From a virus, in IMG/VR virus record IMGVR_UViG_3300024346_000117, positions 1-47,671 of that record: DNA of 47,671 nucleotides, one strand, 5' to 3'. Made by a program: the position numbers and the translations under genes. Each line of letters opens with the position of its first letter. Positions within the stretch are counted from its first letter, which is position 1. The notes under the pieces were generated by a model, which did not search any database, had not been told where the DNA came from, and worked only from the letters and a program-made list of their open reading frames with translations. Shown here in pieces: positions 1 to 44,888 of the stretch.

Positions 1-111
1 ATCATCTGATTTTTTATAACCAACTGATGATGATATTTTATTACCTGATTTACCCTTTACTAGGTTTCGGATTCTTGTAACGTCCTTCTTTTCGAACTGT
101 TTTTTTAACAT
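1..111 (-). CDS. Hypothetical phage protein, N-terminal fragment cut by the window edge
   Basis: The frame opens at ATG 111-109 and stays open to the left edge, giving 37 residues that begin MLKKQFEKKDVTRIRNLV. The peptide is strongly basic (Lys/Arg-rich). Its start overlaps the stop of the HNH gene by seven bases, so the two are probably translated together. The N-terminus resembles small conserved hypothetical proteins of marine T4-like phages, but I cannot assign a function. The reading frame and the tight overlap are seen directly; the family link is recollection only. Confidence 0.55.
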   Translation of the reverse strand, partial: MLKKQFEKKDVTRIRNLVKGKSGNKISSSVGYKKSDD

Positions 112-584
112 AATATTTTATCTCCTTTTTCTCTATTTTCTATTATAGATAGTGGTTGTGTATTGGTATAGTGGAAACTTCCACCTTTACTTAGTGGGTG
201 GGTATGATCTATTTCCCAGTAACCATCTTTACCGTAGTTATCCCAAGTCATATGTTGATCAAATCTTTTTTCTAAGTATATTTTATACTCGTTCATATCA
301 CAGCCTAATAAATCTTTTAGACTATCATCTTTAACCCTTCCGTTTAGGGCGTGATTAATACGAGATCTGATTCGGGATGTAAGTTTATATTTTAAATCTG
401 TATTTTGTTTATTATGTTCCCAAATACGTTTTCTTTCACCATATTGGTTAATATGCCAATCTTTATCTGCTCGTTTTACTTTCACACAGGGTTTACACCA
501 ATAGTTGTAACCATCTTTTTGATTTCTCATCTTAGCAAAGGAATCATAAGATTTGGTTTCTTTACAAATAGTACACTTTTTCAT
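105..584 (-). CDS. HNH endonuclease, probable homing/free-standing type
   Basis: A 159-residue protein. The N-terminus has two CxxC pairs (CTIC near residue 4 and CKPC near 30), which form a zinc knuckle. The C-terminal part carries an HNH core, EIDHTHPLSKGG near residues 124-135, followed by a conserved N-T-Q-P-L and a late Asn/Lys. This is the usual layout of phage HNH nucleases that nick or cut DNA and often spread as homing enzymes. Its ATG overlaps the stop of the upstream fusion gene in an ATGA arrangement, so it is translationally coupled. It could be a mobile gene inserted between two older genes, or a domesticated nuclease. Confidence 0.85.
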   Translation of the reverse strand: MKKCTICKETKSYDSFAKMRNQKDGYNYWCKPCVKVKRADKDWHINQYGERKRIWEHNKQNTDLKYKLTSRIRSRINHALNGRVKDDSLKDLLGCDMNEYKIYLEKRFDQHMTWDNYGKDGYWEIDHTHPLSKGGSFHYTNTQPLSIIENREKGDKILC

Positions 585-2260
585 AAACCAAGTTGTTTCA
601 ACGCCTCAATAGTTTGGGGTGTAGACGTGAACAATATACCAGTCCCTCCTGCAGATTCCCAGTTACTTATAGTAGATGCTTTATCATCTATTAATATATC
701 ATATTGAGTAAGGTTTGGTTTTACCTTATGTTTTTCCTTAGCAAATCTGAAGTTTACTTTAGGTTTGGATGGGAATAACTTACCAATATGTTTTTTAACC
801 CAAAGATTTTTTCCTAATACAGATTGCTTCTTAATAGAAGGAGCAGTTAATACCTCGTAATCGTGTTGAGATACATAATCTACTAGTGTTTTAGCTTGAG
901 GCATAGGTGGTATACCTACCCAAAACGCTACTTTATGTTTTACATCAATAAAATCCCAAAACGCGTTTTTACCGTTTTTAGATTCGTAATCACTTGGGGA
1001 CATACCAGATAAATCTCTAAATCGTTGATCAAAATCAGCTACAACACCATCTAAATCTAAATAGATTTTATATTCTTCTTCGTCTTCTCTTAATCTACCT
1101 AACTCAGCAGCATATGCATTTAAACCAAATGGATCTTTAGTTTTTTCTTCAACTATGGGTTGATTATCCTCACTACCACACTTATGGCAAGTAAACATAT
1201 CGTCTCCCCCATCATCAATATTCCAACTCCAACCGCAGTTATCACATACGATTTTTTGACCTACTATTGATTCGTCTAACTTATTACCTGTTATGCTATC
1301 AGTCCAGTTTCTAAACGTCATAGTACCTCTTAGATTTGCTTCTTGTTCTAACTTATCTAAATCACCATCTTCTTGAGTATTAGTAGTAGTTATATCACCT
1401 AAACGTCCTTCTAGATTTTGAATATGATGAATCATCTCGTGAGCATATGAACGTACTATATCTTTAGGATGTCTACCTTCAGTATATAATACAATATGTT
1501 TATTTTCTGGGTCGTAATATGCTGTTTTACCTAAAAAATCACTTGCATTATCTGAATCACCATCTATAAACTCCATAGTTGGTAAGGGTTCTATATTCAT
1601 ACCCTTATCTATCATATGGTTAGTTAGTTGAGATATTTTTTCTACTACATCAATACTATCAGTATATGAAGCGTGTTCGTTAAGTGATTCTTTTACAGAT
1701 ACTATATCAAATACTTCTTGTACCTCACCATCAGTTAACTCATCAGGTAGAAAATCTCTAAACTTATCTTTACTTACTTTAAGAGCATTTCTAGCAGCAG
1801 TACCAGATACACCACCTGGTGTTACTATAGTTCTTAACTCCATATTAGGGTATTTAGATATGGATTTGGTTCTACTTGAAATATCTTTAAAATCTTCTTC
1901 GTTATCTTGTCTAGCACCTATAATCCATAATACTTCCTCTTGTGGGTGTTCCTTAGCATAATCGTAAATAGCTCTTATTGGTGCTTTTTTAGTAGGAATA
2001 ACTGTTACTTTCATAGGAAGTGATCGTTTGTAAACCTCCCAAATAAGTGTTGATTGGATTTGAGTTACACCATCACGTTCTTTAGCACCAACATAAATAA
2101 TAAACTCATCTATCGATGGGTTTTGTCTAAGTGCTTCTTTAACTACTTCAAAGTGCCCGGAAGTTGGTGGTTTAAATCCTCCCCCGTAAACCGCAGTAGT
2201 TTTTTTATTTTTATCTTCGTTAAGTATAGTTTTAACTATAAAGTTAGTTAATAAACGCAT
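581..2260 (-). CDS. Four-part fusion: nucleotidyltransferase, HExxH metalloprotease-like domain, zinc ribbon, HAD 5'-nucleotidase
   Basis: A 559-residue protein with four separable parts. Residues about 20-185 are a nucleotidyltransferase: GGGFKPPTSGH at 26-36 is the HxGH-type loop and GVSGTAAR at 150-157 matches the ISSTxxR motif. Residues about 200-320 contain HEMIH at 274-278 with a downstream EQEAN, as in zinc metallopeptidases. C339, C342, C358 and C361 form a zinc ribbon. Residues 397-559 start with LDLDGVVADFD, the HAD motif of 5'(3')-deoxyribonucleotidases (D402, D404). The N-terminus MRLLTNFIVKTILNE resembles a T4 capsid-targeting sequence. L-x-E motifs also occur near 193-195, 328-331 and 391-394, at the domain borders. 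The start overlaps the kinase gene by 17 bases. The domain calls are firm; the cellular role is not known. Confidence 0.85.
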   Translation of the reverse strand: MRLLTNFIVKTILNEDKNKKTTAVYGGGFKPPTSGHFEVVKEALRQNPSIDEFIIYVGAKERDGVTQIQSTLIWEVYKRSLPMKVTVIPTKKAPIRAIYDYAKEHPQEEVLWIIGARQDNEEDFKDISSRTKSISKYPNMELRTIVTPGGVSGTAARNALKVSKDKFRDFLPDELTDGEVQEVFDIVSVKESLNEHASYTDSIDVVEKISQLTNHMIDKGMNIEPLPTMEFIDGDSDNASDFLGKTAYYDPENKHIVLYTEGRHPKDIVRSYAHEMIHHIQNLEGRLGDITTTNTQEDGDLDKLEQEANLRGTMTFRNWTDSITGNKLDESIVGQKIVCDNCGWSWNIDDGGDDMFTCHKCGSEDNQPIVEEKTKDPFGLNAYAAELGRLREDEEEYKIYLDLDGVVADFDQRFRDLSGMSPSDYESKNGKNAFWDFIDVKHKVAFWVGIPPMPQAKTLVDYVSQHDYEVLTAPSIKKQSVLGKNLWVKKHIGKLFPSKPKVNFRFAKEKHKVKPNLTQYDILIDDKASTISNWESAGGTGILFTSTPQTIEALKQLGL

Positions 2261-3014
2261 TTATTTTATTTGTTATAGTGGATTGATCATCAAAATCAGG
2301 AGTATTAGATAATGCTTGTTTAATATTAGCAATCATATCTTTTTGTTCCTTATCTTTCTTTGCTTGCTCCTCAGGTGATTTAGGTTTACCTGAATATGTA
2401 ACTGTCGCAAAGTATTTATCTATTTGTTCTTGACTATAATCTTTAATAGCATCTTTGGGATCGTTATCTAAAATAACGAAGTTATTACCAAACATCTTTT
2501 CAAACGTTTCTATATTTTTAGTTGTACTATCCCAAGTTCTTAATATGATTGAAGGACGTAATGCCCTACCACCTTTTTCACCTCGTTCTTTATTACGTTG
2601 TAAAGAAGTTAAAGGTGAAACATATACAAATGCCATAAAAGTTTCATAACCTAGATCTTCTAGTTGTTGTTTCTTTTTAGCTATAGGATTTGAAGCAGCG
2701 CCTGTACCATCTATGATTAGATTTTCACTATCATCCATAGATTGTTGTAGTTTGGATGTAGTATCCTTACGTGCTTGTCCCATAAGTTTTGCTGCTGAAG
2801 ATAACTCCTCGGCACCATATTCTGCTTGTGGTTTATCTAAACCAGATGCTCTAAGTAGTTCCTCATAGGTATCGTCTATGTTTATAGATTTTAAACCCTT
2901 GTTACTCAAATATTGTTTAACAAAAGTGGATTTACCACTCCCAGCAGGTCCTGCTAAGAACACTGCTTTAGGTTTTTGTTCATTTTCTAATAATAGATCT
3001 ACTAGTTTTATCAT
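2244..3014 (-). CDS. P-loop kinase, zeta-toxin/AAA_33-like
   Basis: A 256-residue protein with a Walker A motif AGPAGSGKST at residues 21-30, followed by an acidic INIDD strand. This is the arrangement of small-molecule kinases such as zeta-toxin-like, polynucleotide or nucleoside kinases. The substrate cannot be read from the sequence. The N-terminus MIKLVDLLLENE has the short amphipathic L-x-E form seen in T4 capsid-targeting peptides. The C-terminus is Lys/Glu-rich and probably helical. It is the first gene behind early promoter 3031-3062 and shares a 17-base overlap with the downstream fusion enzyme. The shared operon suggests a joint role in nucleotide or cofactor metabolism, which is inference. 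Confidence 0.8.
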   Translation of the reverse strand: MIKLVDLLLENEQKPKAVFLAGPAGSGKSTFVKQYLSNKGLKSINIDDTYEELLRASGLDKPQAEYGAEELSSAAKLMGQARKDTTSKLQQSMDDSENLIIDGTGAASNPIAKKKQQLEDLGYETFMAFVYVSPLTSLQRNKERGEKGGRALRPSIILRTWDSTTKNIETFEKMFGNNFVILDNDPKDAIKDYSQEQIDKYFATVTYSGKPKSPEEQAKKDKEQKDMIANIKQALSNTPDFDDQSTITNKINAFIN

Positions 3015-11653: not shown

Positions 11654-14335
11654 TTATGTTAAGTTATAGGTTATACTAGCACTACTACCACCAGCTTGTA
11701 ATACATTTGTTCTATAAACTGTATAGTCTCCTACTGTTGATTTTGTAAATTGACCTATCACTCCAAATCCACTTGTTGCAATGCCAGTTAAATCACTTTC
11801 ATTGCCATCATAAATAATGTATTGATATTTATCTCCACTCCAAGTTATGGTTAATGTATCTCCTGAAGGGTTTGTATTTCCTTTATCTATTGTTCCTATA
11901 GTTCCTCCTAATGTTGTATCCCAAGATCCTAAATCTTCAAGTTCTGTTTGTGTAAATGATGCAGCAGTAGATGCTCCATATCTTACACTACGTATTTTAC
12001 TAAATGTTCTAGTGGCAGTTCTACTAGTTGATAATTGAGGACTATTTTCACCTGTTGGTGATTGATATGCTGTTACTGATTGAATGGTTATACCAGCTGA
12101 ACCTGCTCCAGTAAATACTATTGGACTATTAGGTGGTGTGTTTGTTATTGATACTTGATCCCACCCATTTGAAGCTCCATAGTTAGTAGTAAAAGCTATA
12201 TTACCTGAAGCACCTTGTTCAAATTGATTATTAGTATCTCCTAATTGAATGGTTACTGTATCTGATATAGATGGTAATCCAGGACTACTTTTACTTAAAT
12301 TACTAGTTGCAGTACTTGATAGTTTATATTCTGAACCATCTAGTGGGCTAGAACCAGTATAGATTAAAGTATATGATTGGGAACCTGCTGTTGATTGAGG
12401 GAGAGTTAAATTAGTACTACCAGCTGTTGTTGTAGTAGATAAAACTGTACTCCCTTGTAATATAGAAGCTTCTACAAATGTGTATCCACCATTATCCCAA
12501 TTACCTATAGTATTGTAAGAATCTAATACTTGATTAAATCGGTCTGTAAGGAATCCACTATTAAAAAAGCTTGAAATAGAAGGTGTTGCTGGTGAGCCAA
12601 ATGTTAATGTTAATTTAGAATCTTGAAATGTAACACCTACATTATCATCAAAATCGTTAATTTTTATTTCATCTAAACCTGTTATTACCCCGGAACCTGA
12701 ATCATATTTTATTGAAGATGTTGCGGCATATTCAGCGTATGATGCTGACTCAATGAAACCATCTAAATATGATGCTGTTGCTGCATATGACGATGATTCA
12801 ACAAATCCTTCTAAGTATGAGGCTGTTAAAGCGTATGATGATGTTACTGATGTACCACTACCATTTAAAGCATATGATGCTGTTAGAGCGTATGATGATG
12901 ATTCAATGAAACCATCTAAATATGATGCTGTTAAGGCGTATGATGCTGTATCTATATTAGTTAACCCACTACCATCTCCTACAAATGAACCACTAAACGA
13001 TCCACTACCAATTACTTCAACTAAGGTTGAACTTGATATCACAGAATCTACAATAGTTGAACCTGTGATTGATGATTCTACAATAGTTGATCCAGATCCA
13101 ATTATACCTCCACTACTAATATTTAAAGCATGTGAAGCTGTTGCTGCGTATGATGCTGATTCAACAAATCCTTCTAAATATGAAGCTGTTAATGCATATG
13201 ATGAGGTTACTGAATTACCACTTCCATTTAAAGCATATGATGCTGTTAAAGCATATGACGCTGTAAGTTGGTTAACTATTGAAGGTGTAACTGTTATACT
13301 ACCTGAGTGGATGTCTATTGACCCCGATACGGTTAAATTACCCGCTACTGTTGCAAAATCAGTTTGTACAGATGTTCCAATTAAAGTTATAGCACCAGAT
13401 GTAGTGTATGTTTCTACTACCGATGTAGTAAATGTTACAAGGTTTGTGGCTGTAGAGGCAACAATCAATGTTTCTGTAGTAGCTCCTTGTATTAGTGTAA
13501 CTGAGGTTCCATCAGCAAGTGAAGAAAAATCTACACCCCCACTATTGATAGTAGTAAGACCATTCTGGAAAATCCACGTATTACCGTTTAGTACAATAGG
13601 GAGTGGAGTGGATCCTTCTATTACCCCAGTTGATATTAGTGAATCCCCAACTCCGTCTGATGAAGTATCAAACACTGGAATGGTTCCTGTTGTTCCAGAC
13701 ACACCACCACCTCCACCATTTAAGGCGTATGATGCTGTTAATGAGTATGAAGAAGTTTCAGCATATGATGAACTTATTTCATGAATAATCTCATGTGATG
13801 ATGATATAGCATATGATGCTGTAAGTGCAAATGATGATGTACTTATATTAGTTAGTTGACTACCATCTCCTACAAACGAACCACTAAATGATCCACTACC
13901 TACTACGTCAACTAAAGTTGAACTTGTAATAATAGTGTCTACTATGGTTGAACTTGATATAGTAGTATCTAATACAGTTGAACCTGTTATTGTAGTGTCT
14001 ACTATGGTTGAACTTGATATAGTAGTATCTAATACAGTTGAACCTGTAATAGTAGATTCTATAATAGTTGAACTTGTAATAGTAGATTCTATAATAGTTG
14101 AACCTGTAACTACTGATCCAGAAGTTAAACCACCACTACCTGCATTTAAGGCATATGATGCTGTTAAGGCATATGATGCTGATTCAATAAAACCATCTAA
14201 ATATGATGCTGTAAGTGCAAATGATGAGGTATCTATATTGGTTAATCCACTACCATCTCCTTGAAATGAACCACTAAATGATCCACTATTTCCAGAAGGC
14301 CCTGATGAAGGGAAAAACTGATCAAATGTACTCAT
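11654..14335 (-). CDS. Large tail fibre with decapeptide and YALTASY repeats
   Basis: An 893-residue protein. After a short N-terminal plug (MSTFDQFFPSSG) it alternates GSFSGSF(Q/V)GDGS repeats, YALTASY repeats and a run of ten-residue units of the form STIVDTTITG. The last third (from about residue 590) is repeat-free and probably folds as the distal receptor-binding or trimerisation domain. It has no visible cysteine. A TATTTATA box lies 25 bases upstream of the ATG. The coding repeats are near-perfect at DNA level, so their length may vary between strains. Confidence 0.75.
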   Translation of the reverse strand: MSTFDQFFPSSGPSGNSGSFSGSFQGDGSGLTNIDTSSFALTASYLDGFIESASYALTASYALNAGSGGLTSGSVVTGSTIIESTITSSTIIESTITGSTVLDTTISSSTIVDTTITGSTVLDTTISSSTIVDTIITSSTLVDVVGSGSFSGSFVGDGSQLTNISTSSFALTASYAISSSHEIIHEISSSYAETSSYSLTASYALNGGGGGVSGTTGTIPVFDTSSDGVGDSLISTGVIEGSTPLPIVLNGNTWIFQNGLTTINSGGVDFSSLADGTSVTLIQGATTETLIVASTATNLVTFTTSVVETYTTSGAITLIGTSVQTDFATVAGNLTVSGSIDIHSGSITVTPSIVNQLTASYALTASYALNGSGNSVTSSYALTASYLEGFVESASYAATASHALNISSGGIIGSGSTIVESSITGSTIVDSVISSSTLVEVIGSGSFSGSFVGDGSGLTNIDTASYALTASYLDGFIESSSYALTASYALNGSGTSVTSSYALTASYLEGFVESSSYAATASYLDGFIESASYAEYAATSSIKYDSGSGVITGLDEIKINDFDDNVGVTFQDSKLTLTFGSPATPSISSFFNSGFLTDRFNQVLDSYNTIGNWDNGGYTFVEASILQGSTVLSTTTTAGSTNLTLPQSTAGSQSYTLIYTGSSPLDGSEYKLSSTATSNLSKSSPGLPSISDTVTIQLGDTNNQFEQGASGNIAFTTNYGASNGWDQVSITNTPPNSPIVFTGAGSAGITIQSVTAYQSPTGENSPQLSTSRTATRTFSKIRSVRYGASTAASFTQTELEDLGSWDTTLGGTIGTIDKGNTNPSGDTLTITWSGDKYQYIIYDGNESDLTGIATSGFGVIGQFTKSTVGDYTVYRTNVLQAGGSSASITYNLT
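13921..14100. repeat. Six tandem 30-bp repeats inside a fibre gene
   Basis: Six exact 30-base units, each ending GTTG on the plus strand, encode ten-residue units of the type STIVDTTITG / STVLDTTISS. Units 13951-13980 and 14011-14040 are identical. Every fifth residue is small or acidic and the centre is Ile/Val, so the protein unit is really two five-residue halves, reminiscent of beta-helix proteins. Confidence 0.9.
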
Positions 14336-32926: not shown

Positions 32927-33333
32927 TATTGAAATGTTAACTCAACGTTATCTGTTAATCCAGTTTGAGCAATACTATATTTTAGTGATACTGTCACTGT
33001 ATATTGATCAGGATTTGATGCTACTTCTAAATCATCTATAATAACGTTAGGGATATTTTCGTTTATACCTTGTTGTATAGTTTCTTCTAGACCTTCTAGG
33101 TTATCGTTTTCTATTTGTTCAAATATAAAGTTTTTTAAACCTGCTCCAAAAGTAGGATTAGCGATTCGTTCTCCTGGGTTCGTTAATAAATAGTTAACTA
33201 AGTTGTATTTTATAGCATCCTTAGTTTGATAGGTTTGGTTAAAGACAGCCGGAGCACTAAAGGGTAAAGCTACACCTATAGCGACTCTAGGTCGTAAATC
33301 GTTAGGAAATATTTGTCTTTCTCCGAATGCCAT
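32926..33333 (-). CDS. gp25: Baseplate wedge protein gp25 (GPW/gp25 family)
   Basis: A 135-residue protein with the hallmark LLTNPGERIANPTFGAGLKN near residues 49-68, the gp25 lysozyme-like fold that nucleates sheath assembly. T4 gp25 is 132 residues long. It is flanked by gp6 on one side and a small structural gene on the other, both with one-base TAATG overlaps. It acts in the baseplate wedge that starts sheath polymerisation. Confidence 0.95.
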   Translation of the reverse strand: MAFGERQIFPNDLRPRVAIGVALPFSAPAVFNQTYQTKDAIKYNLVNYLLTNPGERIANPTFGAGLKNFIFEQIENDNLEGLEETIQQGINENIPNVIIDDLEVASNPDQYTVTVSLKYSIAQTGLTDNVELTFQ

Positions 33334-33683
33334 TATTTATTCATTATACCCATTATTTGATCCATTGATACTTCACCTTCAGGTAACTTACCATTTGGAG
33401 AAGTTGTATCAACCGGACCGTTTATTTGTAGACCTTGTCGTGGTGCTACGTCTCCTGATGTAAACTGTGCTTTCATATCACCTAAAACATTCATATAGTT
33501 TTCTCTGATATTTTGTTTAACTTCTGGGGTAGCATGTGGTGCTGTTGGGGTTGAATAAGTTGGTTGTTCGATTATTGGTTGTTTATTTGACTTAATTGCC
33601 TCCAATAAAATGTCCTTTAGTTCCTCTTGGATTACTTCCTTTACTACTTCTTTTAGTGTGTTTTTAAGTTCTGTTAGTTTCAT
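33333..33683 (-). CDS. Small coiled-coil protein of the baseplate operon
   Basis: A 116-residue protein. Residues 1-33 form a Lys/Glu/Leu-rich amphipathic helix (MKLTELKNTLKEVVKEVIQ at the start), followed by a Pro/Thr-rich linker. The last 50 residues (NYMNVLGDMKAQF ... VSMDQIMGIMN) are predicted helical. The N-terminal helix could be an assembly or capsid-targeting type signal. It is not a known T4 part. A TATTTATA box sits only five bases before the ATG. Confidence 0.55.
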   Translation of the reverse strand: MKLTELKNTLKEVVKEVIQEELKDILLEAIKSNKQPIIEQPTYSTPTAPHATPEVKQNIRENYMNVLGDMKAQFTSGDVAPRQGLQINGPVDTTSPNGKLPEGEVSMDQIMGIMNK

Positions 33684-43040: not shown

Positions 43041-44888
43041 TTATATAGGACCACCATCAGTTATGGTCCACGGTGTATTTACTAAATTTGTATGTGCCAC
43101 TCCAGATACACTGGAGTTATATTGTAAGTCATTACTAAACTCTACCCCTGCTAAACGTGTGCTATTTACCCACCCATTAAGTAAATTATCATAGTTAGTT
43201 GTAGTCATATCACTACTAACAAACATATTAATTGCTGTAGTTAAAGCTCCAACATCCCATGCCCCAATATCTTGATTGAAGGATGTTGATTCATAAAACA
43301 TTTCATCCATATCTGTAATAGTACTTGTATCCCATGCTGATAGATCTCGGTTAAATAAGGTAGCATTTTTGAACATTTCGTTAGTTCTAATAACACCATT
43401 CATATCCCAAGTAGATAAATCTTGATTGAATACATCAGCCCCATTAAACATTGCTTTCATAGTAGTTACGTTAGGTATATTCCAATTCCCAATAGGTTGG
43501 TTAAATACTGTTGAATAAGCAAACATAAAGTCTGTATCCTGAAGTTGTGGGGTTTGCCAATTACTTATGTCCTGATTGAAGGAAGTTCCATAAAACATAG
43601 AATCCATAGTAGTAGCTGATCTCACATCCCAATTAGAAATGTCTTTATCAAAAACTGTATTATCCTTAAACATATTTCTAAAAACTTGGACAATGCAAGT
43701 ATCCCAATTACTTAATTCCTGATTGAAGTTTTCAGCAGCATTGAACATCTGAAACATTGTAAGGACATTAGAAGTATCCCAATTATTTAGAGGTTGATTA
43801 AATACAACAGCATTTCTGAACATACTAGACATATTAGTGACACTACTAACATCCCAGTTAGTTAGGGGTTGATTAAATGCTGGGGTAAAACCAAACATAT
43901 TATTCATATTAGTAACACTACTAACATCCCAATCCTTAATACTATCACTCTCACCATTATTAAATTTTGGCATAGAACTAAACATCCCCGCAGTTCTAAC
44001 AACATTAGACATTCTCCAAGCACCAATATTTTGATTAAATACCTCAGCACCACCAAACATTGCTTGCATATCAGTCACATTGCCCACATCCCAACTATCT
44101 AATGGTTGATCAAAGGCATCTGCTCGTCTAAACATTTGTCTCATATCTGTAACATTACCCACATCCCAATTATTTAGGGGTTTATTATATGAGTCTGTAT
44201 TAAAAAACATACTCTCCATATTAGTCACATTAGAAACATCCCAATTAGATATATCATAATCAAAGTTGATGGCAAAAGTAAACATCATCCTCATATTAGT
44301 TAATAGACTTGTATCGGGTAAATCTTTAGCTGAAAAACCAATTAGGTTGACACAACTACTAAACATCTGATACATTGAAACCCACTTAGTATCTCCCCAG
44401 TTTAAAATATCAACTACAGTAGCTCTTATCGTATTATTCATCCCAGTATAATCTTGGGTGTACGAGTTAAAACCACCACTTTCGATTTCAACATCATAAA
44501 TTCCAGCTACGGGCCAAGTGCGAGTAGGAACACCAGTTCCACTTTCAGTAGTACCATCACCCCAATTAATAGTCCAAGTAGTAGGATCACCACCATCTTG
44601 TTGAAGAGCTAATATAGTTTGAAAACCAGCAGTAGGTATATTAAGTTGGATAACAAACTTAGTACCATAACCATCAATAATAGCTTGGGCAGCTTTCTCT
44701 TCTTCACTCCCACCTGCAGCCCTTTGAGCAATCATTAACTTGTGTTGGTCAAGGTTAGTTATATAGTTTTCAAATAAGATTTTCTCATCTCTATATTTTT
44801 CCTTTAACTCCAATATAGTTAAACCTTCATTATCTTCCCTTTCTATAAAGTGTAACCACTCTCCAGGATTTTCTTGTGCTATTAACAT
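43041..44888 (-). CDS. DUF285 (BspA-like) repeat protein with PKD domain
   Basis: A 615-residue protein. An N-terminal coiled region (residues 25-60) is followed by a PKD-like domain (WTINWGDGTTESGTG near 106-120, then VAGIYDVEI). From about 165 on there are some 14-16 repeats of about 25 residues, NWDVSNVTNMESMF ... FNQPLNNWD. These DUF285 repeats are known from Bacteroidota and Mycoplasma surface proteins. There is no signal peptide, so it is probably a virion component that binds a surface ligand. A TATTTATA box lies 18 bases upstream, which supports late expression. Confidence 0.85.
   Translation of the reverse strand: MLIAQENPGEWLHFIEREDNEGLTILELKEKYRDEKILFENYITNLDQHKLMIAQRAAGGSEEEKAAQAIIDGYGTKFVIQLNIPTAGFQTILALQQDGGDPTTWTINWGDGTTESGTGVPTRTWPVAGIYDVEIESGGFNSYTQDYTGMNNTIRATVVDILNWGDTKWVSMYQMFSSCVNLIGFSAKDLPDTSLLTNMRMMFTFAINFDYDISNWDVSNVTNMESMFFNTDSYNKPLNNWDVGNVTDMRQMFRRADAFDQPLDSWDVGNVTDMQAMFGGAEVFNQNIGAWRMSNVVRTAGMFSSMPKFNNGESDSIKDWDVSSVTNMNNMFGFTPAFNQPLTNWDVSSVTNMSSMFRNAVVFNQPLNNWDTSNVLTMFQMFNAAENFNQELSNWDTCIVQVFRNMFKDNTVFDKDISNWDVRSATTMDSMFYGTSFNQDISNWQTPQLQDTDFMFAYSTVFNQPIGNWNIPNVTTMKAMFNGADVFNQDLSTWDMNGVIRTNEMFKNATLFNRDLSAWDTSTITDMDEMFYESTSFNQDIGAWDVGALTTAINMFVSSDMTTTNYDNLLNGWVNSTRLAGVEFSNDLQYNSSVSGVAHTNLVNTPWTITDGGPI

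Follow-up and report, generated by a model that had tools for sequence, protein, structure and literature searches.

A modular phage gene with prohead protease-type sites at its domain joints: a probable capsid-targeted polyprotein

Results

The window analysed here, the whole stretch of 47,671 nucleotides, is a viral contig from IMG/VR that carries baseplate and tail genes. Close to its start, on the minus strand, lies a gene for a modular polyprotein of 559 aa (581..2260), supported by its ORF, domain matches, an alignment of 30 relatives and an AlphaFold model; the reading-frame check found the plus strand of 581-2260 filled with stops. The whole chain gave no significant match by sequence to solved structures, and a fold search (Foldseek) was used in place of that search. 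The initial annotation had described four enzyme-like domains. All four are real, and they comprise three enzymes plus a zinc ribbon, which is a domain but no enzyme. Their identities were borne out, the HAD module lying above the Pfam cut-off, the nucleotidyltransferase (NTase) being recognized by its fold and the other two modules by their HExxH and CxxC/CxxC residues.

The first 15 residues (MRLLTNFIVKTILNE; 2216..2260, minus strand) form a predicted capsid-targeting leader, with a cut predicted after E15 from the model and the relatives. In the AlphaFold model the leader is helical at residues 2-13 and has low pLDDT at 8-16, and in the family alignment most relatives keep a MSLVNELIKGLLPE-type sequence at this position. 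The resemblance of the N-terminus to T4 capsid-targeting sequences, which had been remarked on earlier, was upheld in that aa 1-15 are a short leader ending in (L/I)xE. The leader is followed by an adenylyltransferase with a CoaD/NadD-type fold (aa 16-195; 1676..2215, minus strand), which ends in LNE (193-195, at 1676-1684) and was assigned by Foldseek and invariant residues. Its Pfam match (CTP_transf_like) was weak and below the cut-off, phrog_3041 matched with an E-value of 2e-5, and no cut-off was reached against the adenylyltransferase profiles of curated families. The fold matches were to PPAT/NadD (E 1e-6 to 1e-4), with CoaD and NadD matched alike and not told apart. The TxGH and SxTxxR-type motifs are present, T33-G35-H36 and S152-G153-T154-x-A156-R157 being invariant in the 30 relatives.

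The next module (aa 196-330; 1271..1675, minus strand), with LDE at its C-terminus (328-330, at 1271-1279), is a metallopeptidase-like HExxH domain. It had no Pfam match above the cut-off and was recognized by invariant residues, namely H274, E275 and H278 of the HEMIH motif together with the downstream E305/E307 (30 relatives). The zinc ribbon (aa 331-371; 1148..1270, minus strand), delimited by its contexts in the family, shows CxxC...CxxC directly in the sequence and ends in IVE (369-371, at 1148-1156). A spacer, KDPFGLNAYAAELGRLRE (aa 372-392; 1085..1147, minus strand), ends in LRE (390-392, at 1085-1093) and has low pLDDT at 370-375 and 382-394. The chain is completed by a HAD 5'(3')-deoxyribonucleotidase (NT5C) module (aa 393-559; 584..1084, minus strand), identified by Pfam (NT5C, E 1.4e-6, above the cut-off) and by phrog_2643 (E 1.8e-23), which carries the DxD motif I and a DD motif with D402, D404, D525 and D526 invariant. 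Given that the catalytic residues of the three enzymes are invariant in the 30 relatives, enzymatic use is implied.

The start of the polyprotein gene is overlapped by the gene for a P-loop kinase (zeta-toxin/AAA_33-like; 2244..3014, minus strand), identified by domain match and orthologues. Comparison of the orthologues predicts a leader at aa 1-10, MIKLVDLLLE (2985..3014, minus strand), whose residues 8-10 are the sole [LI]xE of the whole protein. This LxE is kept in about 50 orthologues with an intact N-terminus; in three loci (L098, L125 and L170) the leader is replaced by unrelated ones, each ending in L-x-E, while the domain is unchanged. Directly downstream of the polyprotein gene, an endonuclease VII/HNH-like gene (105-584, minus strand; phrog_1035, E 1.6e-21) has no leader. 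The neighbours of the polyprotein gene in the window are baseplate and tail genes, and in relatives head genes come next. Among the baseplate genes, a 116-aa protein with a helical start, MKLTELKNTLKEVVKEVIQEELKDILLE (33333-33683, minus strand), has a counterpart at the same place in a 120-kb relative (13392-13778). Elsewhere in the window, a 615-aa protein (43041-44888, minus strand) consists of DUF285 repeats (Pfam E 9.5e-156) and also shows a weak PKD domain. Only metagenome bins, one of them Flavobacteriales, were matched among cellular genomes, so that the host assignment is an indirect one: the phage is probably T4-like, with a host in the Bacteroidetes (Flavobacteriales).

The chain contains seven [LI]xE triplets: LNE at 13-15, IDE at 50-52, IWE at 73-75, LNE at 193-195, LDE at 328-330, IVE at 369-371 and LRE at 390-392. 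Two of the positions reported earlier (13-15 and 193-195) are confirmed, two have been adjusted (from 328-331 to 328-330 and from 391-394 to 390-392) and the IVE at 369-371 had been overlooked. In the AlphaFold model, the joints with pLDDT below 50 (8-16, 190-200, 325-334, 370-375 and 382-394) each contain or abut an [LI]xE, and five of the seven triplets (E15, E195, E330, E371 and E392) fall within the 59 residues with pLDDT below 50 (hypergeometric p = 2e-4). The sites are also kept in the aligned relatives: position 193 is L or I in 28 of 30 and position 195 is E in 29 of 30, with P2 and P1' variable, and position 392 is E in 27 of 30, with variable flanks. The placing of these motifs at domain borders, as first proposed, is thus well founded.

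Scans of viral contigs yielded a family of 75 distinct proteins, between 154 and 1148 aa long and in part clipped by contig ends. Their chains are mosaics in which the NTase, metallopeptidase, zinc ribbon and HAD occur in varying order together with extra modules, among them a second HEIEH peptidase, a basic GTGKKPKGSGRR module and an ART-PolyVal-like domain. Flavobacterium phage immuto, the closest relative in culture, has these enzyme modules (NTase, metallopeptidase and HAD) divided between gp88 and gp87, with candidate joints TLAE|ALDD and VMAE|GRYD in gp88 and a gp87 leader whose predicted cut lies behind E14 or E15. Further recurrent modules (GTGKKPKGSGRRLYTDEDPKDT..., LWANIHAKRKRGEKP..., LPRGKK... 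and PPxFLEG...) move between chains (L007 1601-3859; L081, L066, L050) and received no Pfam name above the cut-off in the chains scanned.

Module boundaries were defined as the ends of BLAST matches between differently built family members. Where a Glu lay close to a boundary, its P3 residue was L, I or V in 52% of cases, as opposed to 14% elsewhere, and L-x-E ranked first of 400 residue pairs near boundaries. At the P3 spacing L or I was found in 166 sequence windows, compared with 47-91 at other spacings. The motif was present at 125 of the 210 well-supported boundaries (42 in shuffles); in leaderless proteins of the same contigs there was no clear excess at supported boundaries (7 of 36, against 5.1 in shuffles), a comparison based on few proteins. 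A statistic built on single BLAST ends was discarded as noisy, with a slight excess in leaderless proteins too, which was no longer clear with supported boundaries. An artefact of composition in E-rich linkers was ruled out by the within-window shuffles and the spacing test.

Homologues lacking L-x-E sites at the domain borders, which the initial annotation had named as counter-evidence, were also looked for, and the outcome did not speak against its proposal. Among distinct junctions between a module and its upstream neighbour, [LIV]xE was found in 131 of 145 (41 expected), and about 10% of junctions were without the motif. Each module was counted only with clearly different upstream neighbours; the figures ignore deep shared ancestry, whose effect on them is limited by this way of counting. 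The zinc ribbon, seen in 65 contexts, had [LIV]xE upstream in 62 and downstream in 55 of 63.

The zinc ribbon is also the first module in two loci (L126 and L192), directly after the leaders MIKLKHILTE (followed by AIIG) and MIKLKDILEE (followed by SIIG), and stand-alone HADs start with leaders of their own (MSKSIVDLLE, MPNLLDLYE and, in immuto, MKKVMGNLADLLLEE). Since the same modules stand directly behind leaders, leader sites and inner joints look interchangeable. In two T4-like phages of other hosts, a HAD among S-layer-type-annotated, probably structural genes has a [LIV]xE leader (LVQE in pelagiphage HTVC008M, INE in Melnitz); in Caulobacter Cr30 and Synechococcus BUCT-ZZ01, a HAD near nucleotide/DNA metabolism genes has none. 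It must be noted that 11 relatives have the same chain and joints with no N-terminal leader (L125, L137, L141, L149, L167, L170, L181, L183, L187, L188 and L193). A missed upstream start codon was rejected, as the frames are closed within 0-10 codons upstream, and the leaders are therefore truly absent; perhaps a different signal serves in these relatives, or the leader is dispensable.

A T4 gp21-type protease (Peptidase_S77) is encoded by the 120-kb relative, by immuto and by 9 of 15 further long contigs in which the family occurs. No such gene was found in the 47.7-kb window contig, which is a fragment that lacks head genes. The S77 protease of the relatives carries LIE-8 near its own start, and T4 gp21 starts with LIE-9. 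The capsid protein of the relatives has [LIV]xE at about residues 8, 34, 49 and 58, the last as V-x-E, conserved in ten genomes, and their core protein has PIVE near its C-terminus, IVE being the same tripeptide as at 369-371 of the chain. In the head/cargo zone of immuto, [LI]xE occurs at residues 8-22 in 19 of 31 genes, compared with 29 of 176 elsewhere (p = 6.5e-7). Similarly, 23 of 38 genes in the head/cargo zone of the 120-kb relative have [LI]xE leaders, compared with 15 of 95 elsewhere (p = 7e-7).

Two stretches of these genomes deserve separate description. In immuto (NC_055915, 101.3-119 kb; L010, L034), about 20 mostly unannotated genes lie between the tail spike and the terminase; 12 of them have capsid-targeting-like leaders, and on this account the region looks like the cargo zone of a testable isolate. 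In the 120-kb contig (61961-64979; L013-L018), six tandem genes just before the head genes have near-identical leaders, MDNFDLKKYLAEGRL(F/L)KE, on unrelated bodies, with MDNFDLKKYLAEG(R/K)L or a near copy as the common leader. One kind of leader on unrelated bodies within a genome is thus seen both in the immuto cargo zone and in the 120-kb relative.

Discussion

In our opinion, the chain is most likely a polyprotein addressed to the capsid, akin to the "polyvalent proteins" and processed in trans by the prohead protease of a T4-like phage; the case for its packaging and cutting is inferential but strong. The interpretation put forward in the initial annotation is supported in part. The first 15 residues or so would act as a capsid-targeting sequence that delivers the chain to the core of the prohead. 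As the head matures, a gp21-type serine protease (Peptidase_S77) would then cleave after the Glu of (L/I/V)-x-E, removing the leader and releasing the adenylyltransferase (aa 16-195, 20 kDa), the metallopeptidase (196-330, 15 kDa), the zinc ribbon (331-371, 4.5 kDa), the short spacer (372-392) and the HAD nucleotidase (393-559, 19 kDa). The released enzymes would share the head with the packaged DNA and would probably be ejected into the host cell. With the same kind of site at every joint, modules can be gained, lost and reordered. We infer that the enzymes would act in early host takeover or counter-defence, possibly in nucleotide or NAD metabolism, NAD repair included. The combination of adenylyltransferase, kinase and nucleotidase suggests that their substrates may be NAD, precursors of coenzyme A or nucleotides.

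The main alternative is an ordinary polyvalent protein, packed and injected as a single chain or freed by its embedded metallopeptidase, with no cutting by the prohead protease. The virion RNA polymerase of phage N4 is packaged without cutting, and the position of the gene near structural genes is likewise in keeping with this explanation, as are the domain repertoire and the mosaicism (zincin-like metallopeptidases, an ART-PolyVal match in a relative). In the proposal of Iyer et al. (2017; PMC5512222), such proteins would be released by the peptidase domains that they contain. We nevertheless regard it as unlikely, given that it leaves unexplained why the P3/P1 motif at each joint is that of the phage's own prohead protease and why the same motif ends the leaders, and that proteins with no peptidase, such as the kinase and the stand-alone HADs, bear the same site.

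The L-x-E could also be a mere linker or recombination landmark, that is, a short conserved DNA sequence or flexible peptide that aids shuffling and is never cut. The sites do coincide with recombination boundaries, and LNE before the zinc ribbon is frequently encoded by TTAAATGAA (27 of 60). However, codon use at the sites is broadly that of the background (TTA 0.73, GAA 0.89), with synonymous variants and exchange among L, I and V, which indicates that the constraint acts on the protein; a DNA-level recombination word at the joints was accordingly judged unlikely. As the enrichment is, moreover, specific to one spacing, and N-terminal leaders, though not internal joints, retain the motif as well, we consider this explanation very improbable. 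That the chain is a prohead core component degraded in maturation like T4 gp22, its domains having no job after assembly, has a parallel in T4 gp22, gp67 and gp68, which undergo cleavage at numerous L/I-x-E sites and for the most part exit the head (PMC9026906), but is hardly credible with five of seven sites between folded domains rather than inside them and with invariant catalytic residues in all three enzymes. On the favoured reading, too, some modules of the polyprotein might not survive the protease, given that the core proteins of T4 end up as small fragments.

The features of the capsid-targeted polyprotein that we favour are partly shared with known systems. T4 gp21 cleaves after L/I-x-E, and the T4 targeting sequences have 10-19 residues; an Asp at the IPIII site prevents processing there and leaves targeting intact (PMC9026906). 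As here, T4 IPI-III and Alt (PMC9026906, PMC3012670) have an N-terminal leader of 10-20 residues ending in (L/I)xE, one type being found on unrelated bodies, and T4 shares with the relatives described here the S77 protease, the T4-like capsid and core proteins and cargo genes near head genes. T4 cargo, however, has one body per leader, Alt with an extra C-terminal site, whereas here several enzyme modules follow one another with a site at each joint. In addition, V at P3 is commoner in the present family than the T4 motif, stated as L/I, would have it. Polyvalent proteins, described from phages and from conjugative elements (Iyer et al., 2017; PMC5512222), resemble the present chains in having many catalytic domains per chain, a common metallopeptidase and shuffled architectures, and the family shows their trait of several unrelated catalytic domains per chain, shuffled between members. 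Their packaging and injection were predicted, with release proposed through embedded peptidases; prohead-protease sites, a zinc ribbon or an NMNAT-type match were not found in the main text of that paper.

In the giant phages phiKZ and SPN3US (PMC5694885, PMC10052503), a gp21 relative matures packaged and ejected head proteins at (S/A)xE, likewise a short x-E motif. These cleavages strip propeptides, often of more than 100 residues, and the available text of the two papers reports no parting of several enzymes. DarB and DdrB of phage P1 (PMC9024508, PMC5512222) are large multidomain cargo with an N-terminal packaging signal within 30 residues, as is predicted here; DarB was detected in virions as a single 250-kDa chain, and no comparable joint motif is described in the available portions of these sources. 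Finally, the NMNAT/NadR-type NAD synthesis genes of phages and NARP1 (PMC7824862, PMC12774641) also place a HIGH-type adenylyltransferase beside a P-loop kinase. At our locus, in contrast, no phosphoribosyltransferase was noticed beside the NTase. The kinase and the NTase could form a split NadR-like pair.

Our search of the open-licence literature found no description of modules separated by prohead-protease sites. The prohead proteases of T4 and SPN3US mostly strip terminal propeptides or shred core proteins, and to our knowledge there is no tested precedent for the separation of several folded enzymes in one chain by such a protease. The opinion voiced at the outset, that this exact arrangement is not a described system, holds only in part: packaged multidomain polyvalent proteins had already been predicted (PMC5512222), with release proposed by embedded peptidases rather than at prohead-protease sites. 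Both polyvalent proteins (PMC5512222) and the capsid targeting of T4 cargo (PMC9026906, PMC3012670) are known; their union did not turn up in the literature searched.

If the proposed reading is true, these two themes would meet in a single mechanism, in which the capsid protease processes a phage polyprotein in trans, and a single gene could supply the virus particle with several separate enzymes. A single short motif would then show, from sequence, which uncharacterised proteins in this marine group of phages are packed in the head and where they are cut. The predictions are exact and cheap, consisting of new N-termini in virions of an existing isolate, Flavobacterium phage immuto; virion proteomics did not appear to be part of any paper found on this phage. 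Such leaders and protease sites might also serve to fill phage heads with more than one enzyme. On balance, we also lean, with less confidence, towards a broader "cut-and-carry" scheme in T4-like phages of marine Bacteroidetes, in which the prohead protease would be the universal processor of fast-evolving modular cargo polyproteins and of leader-bearing single enzymes. Were this scheme true, any domain flanked by (L/I/V)xE would become packable and separable, and the whole injected arsenal of such phages would be readable from sequence, site by site.
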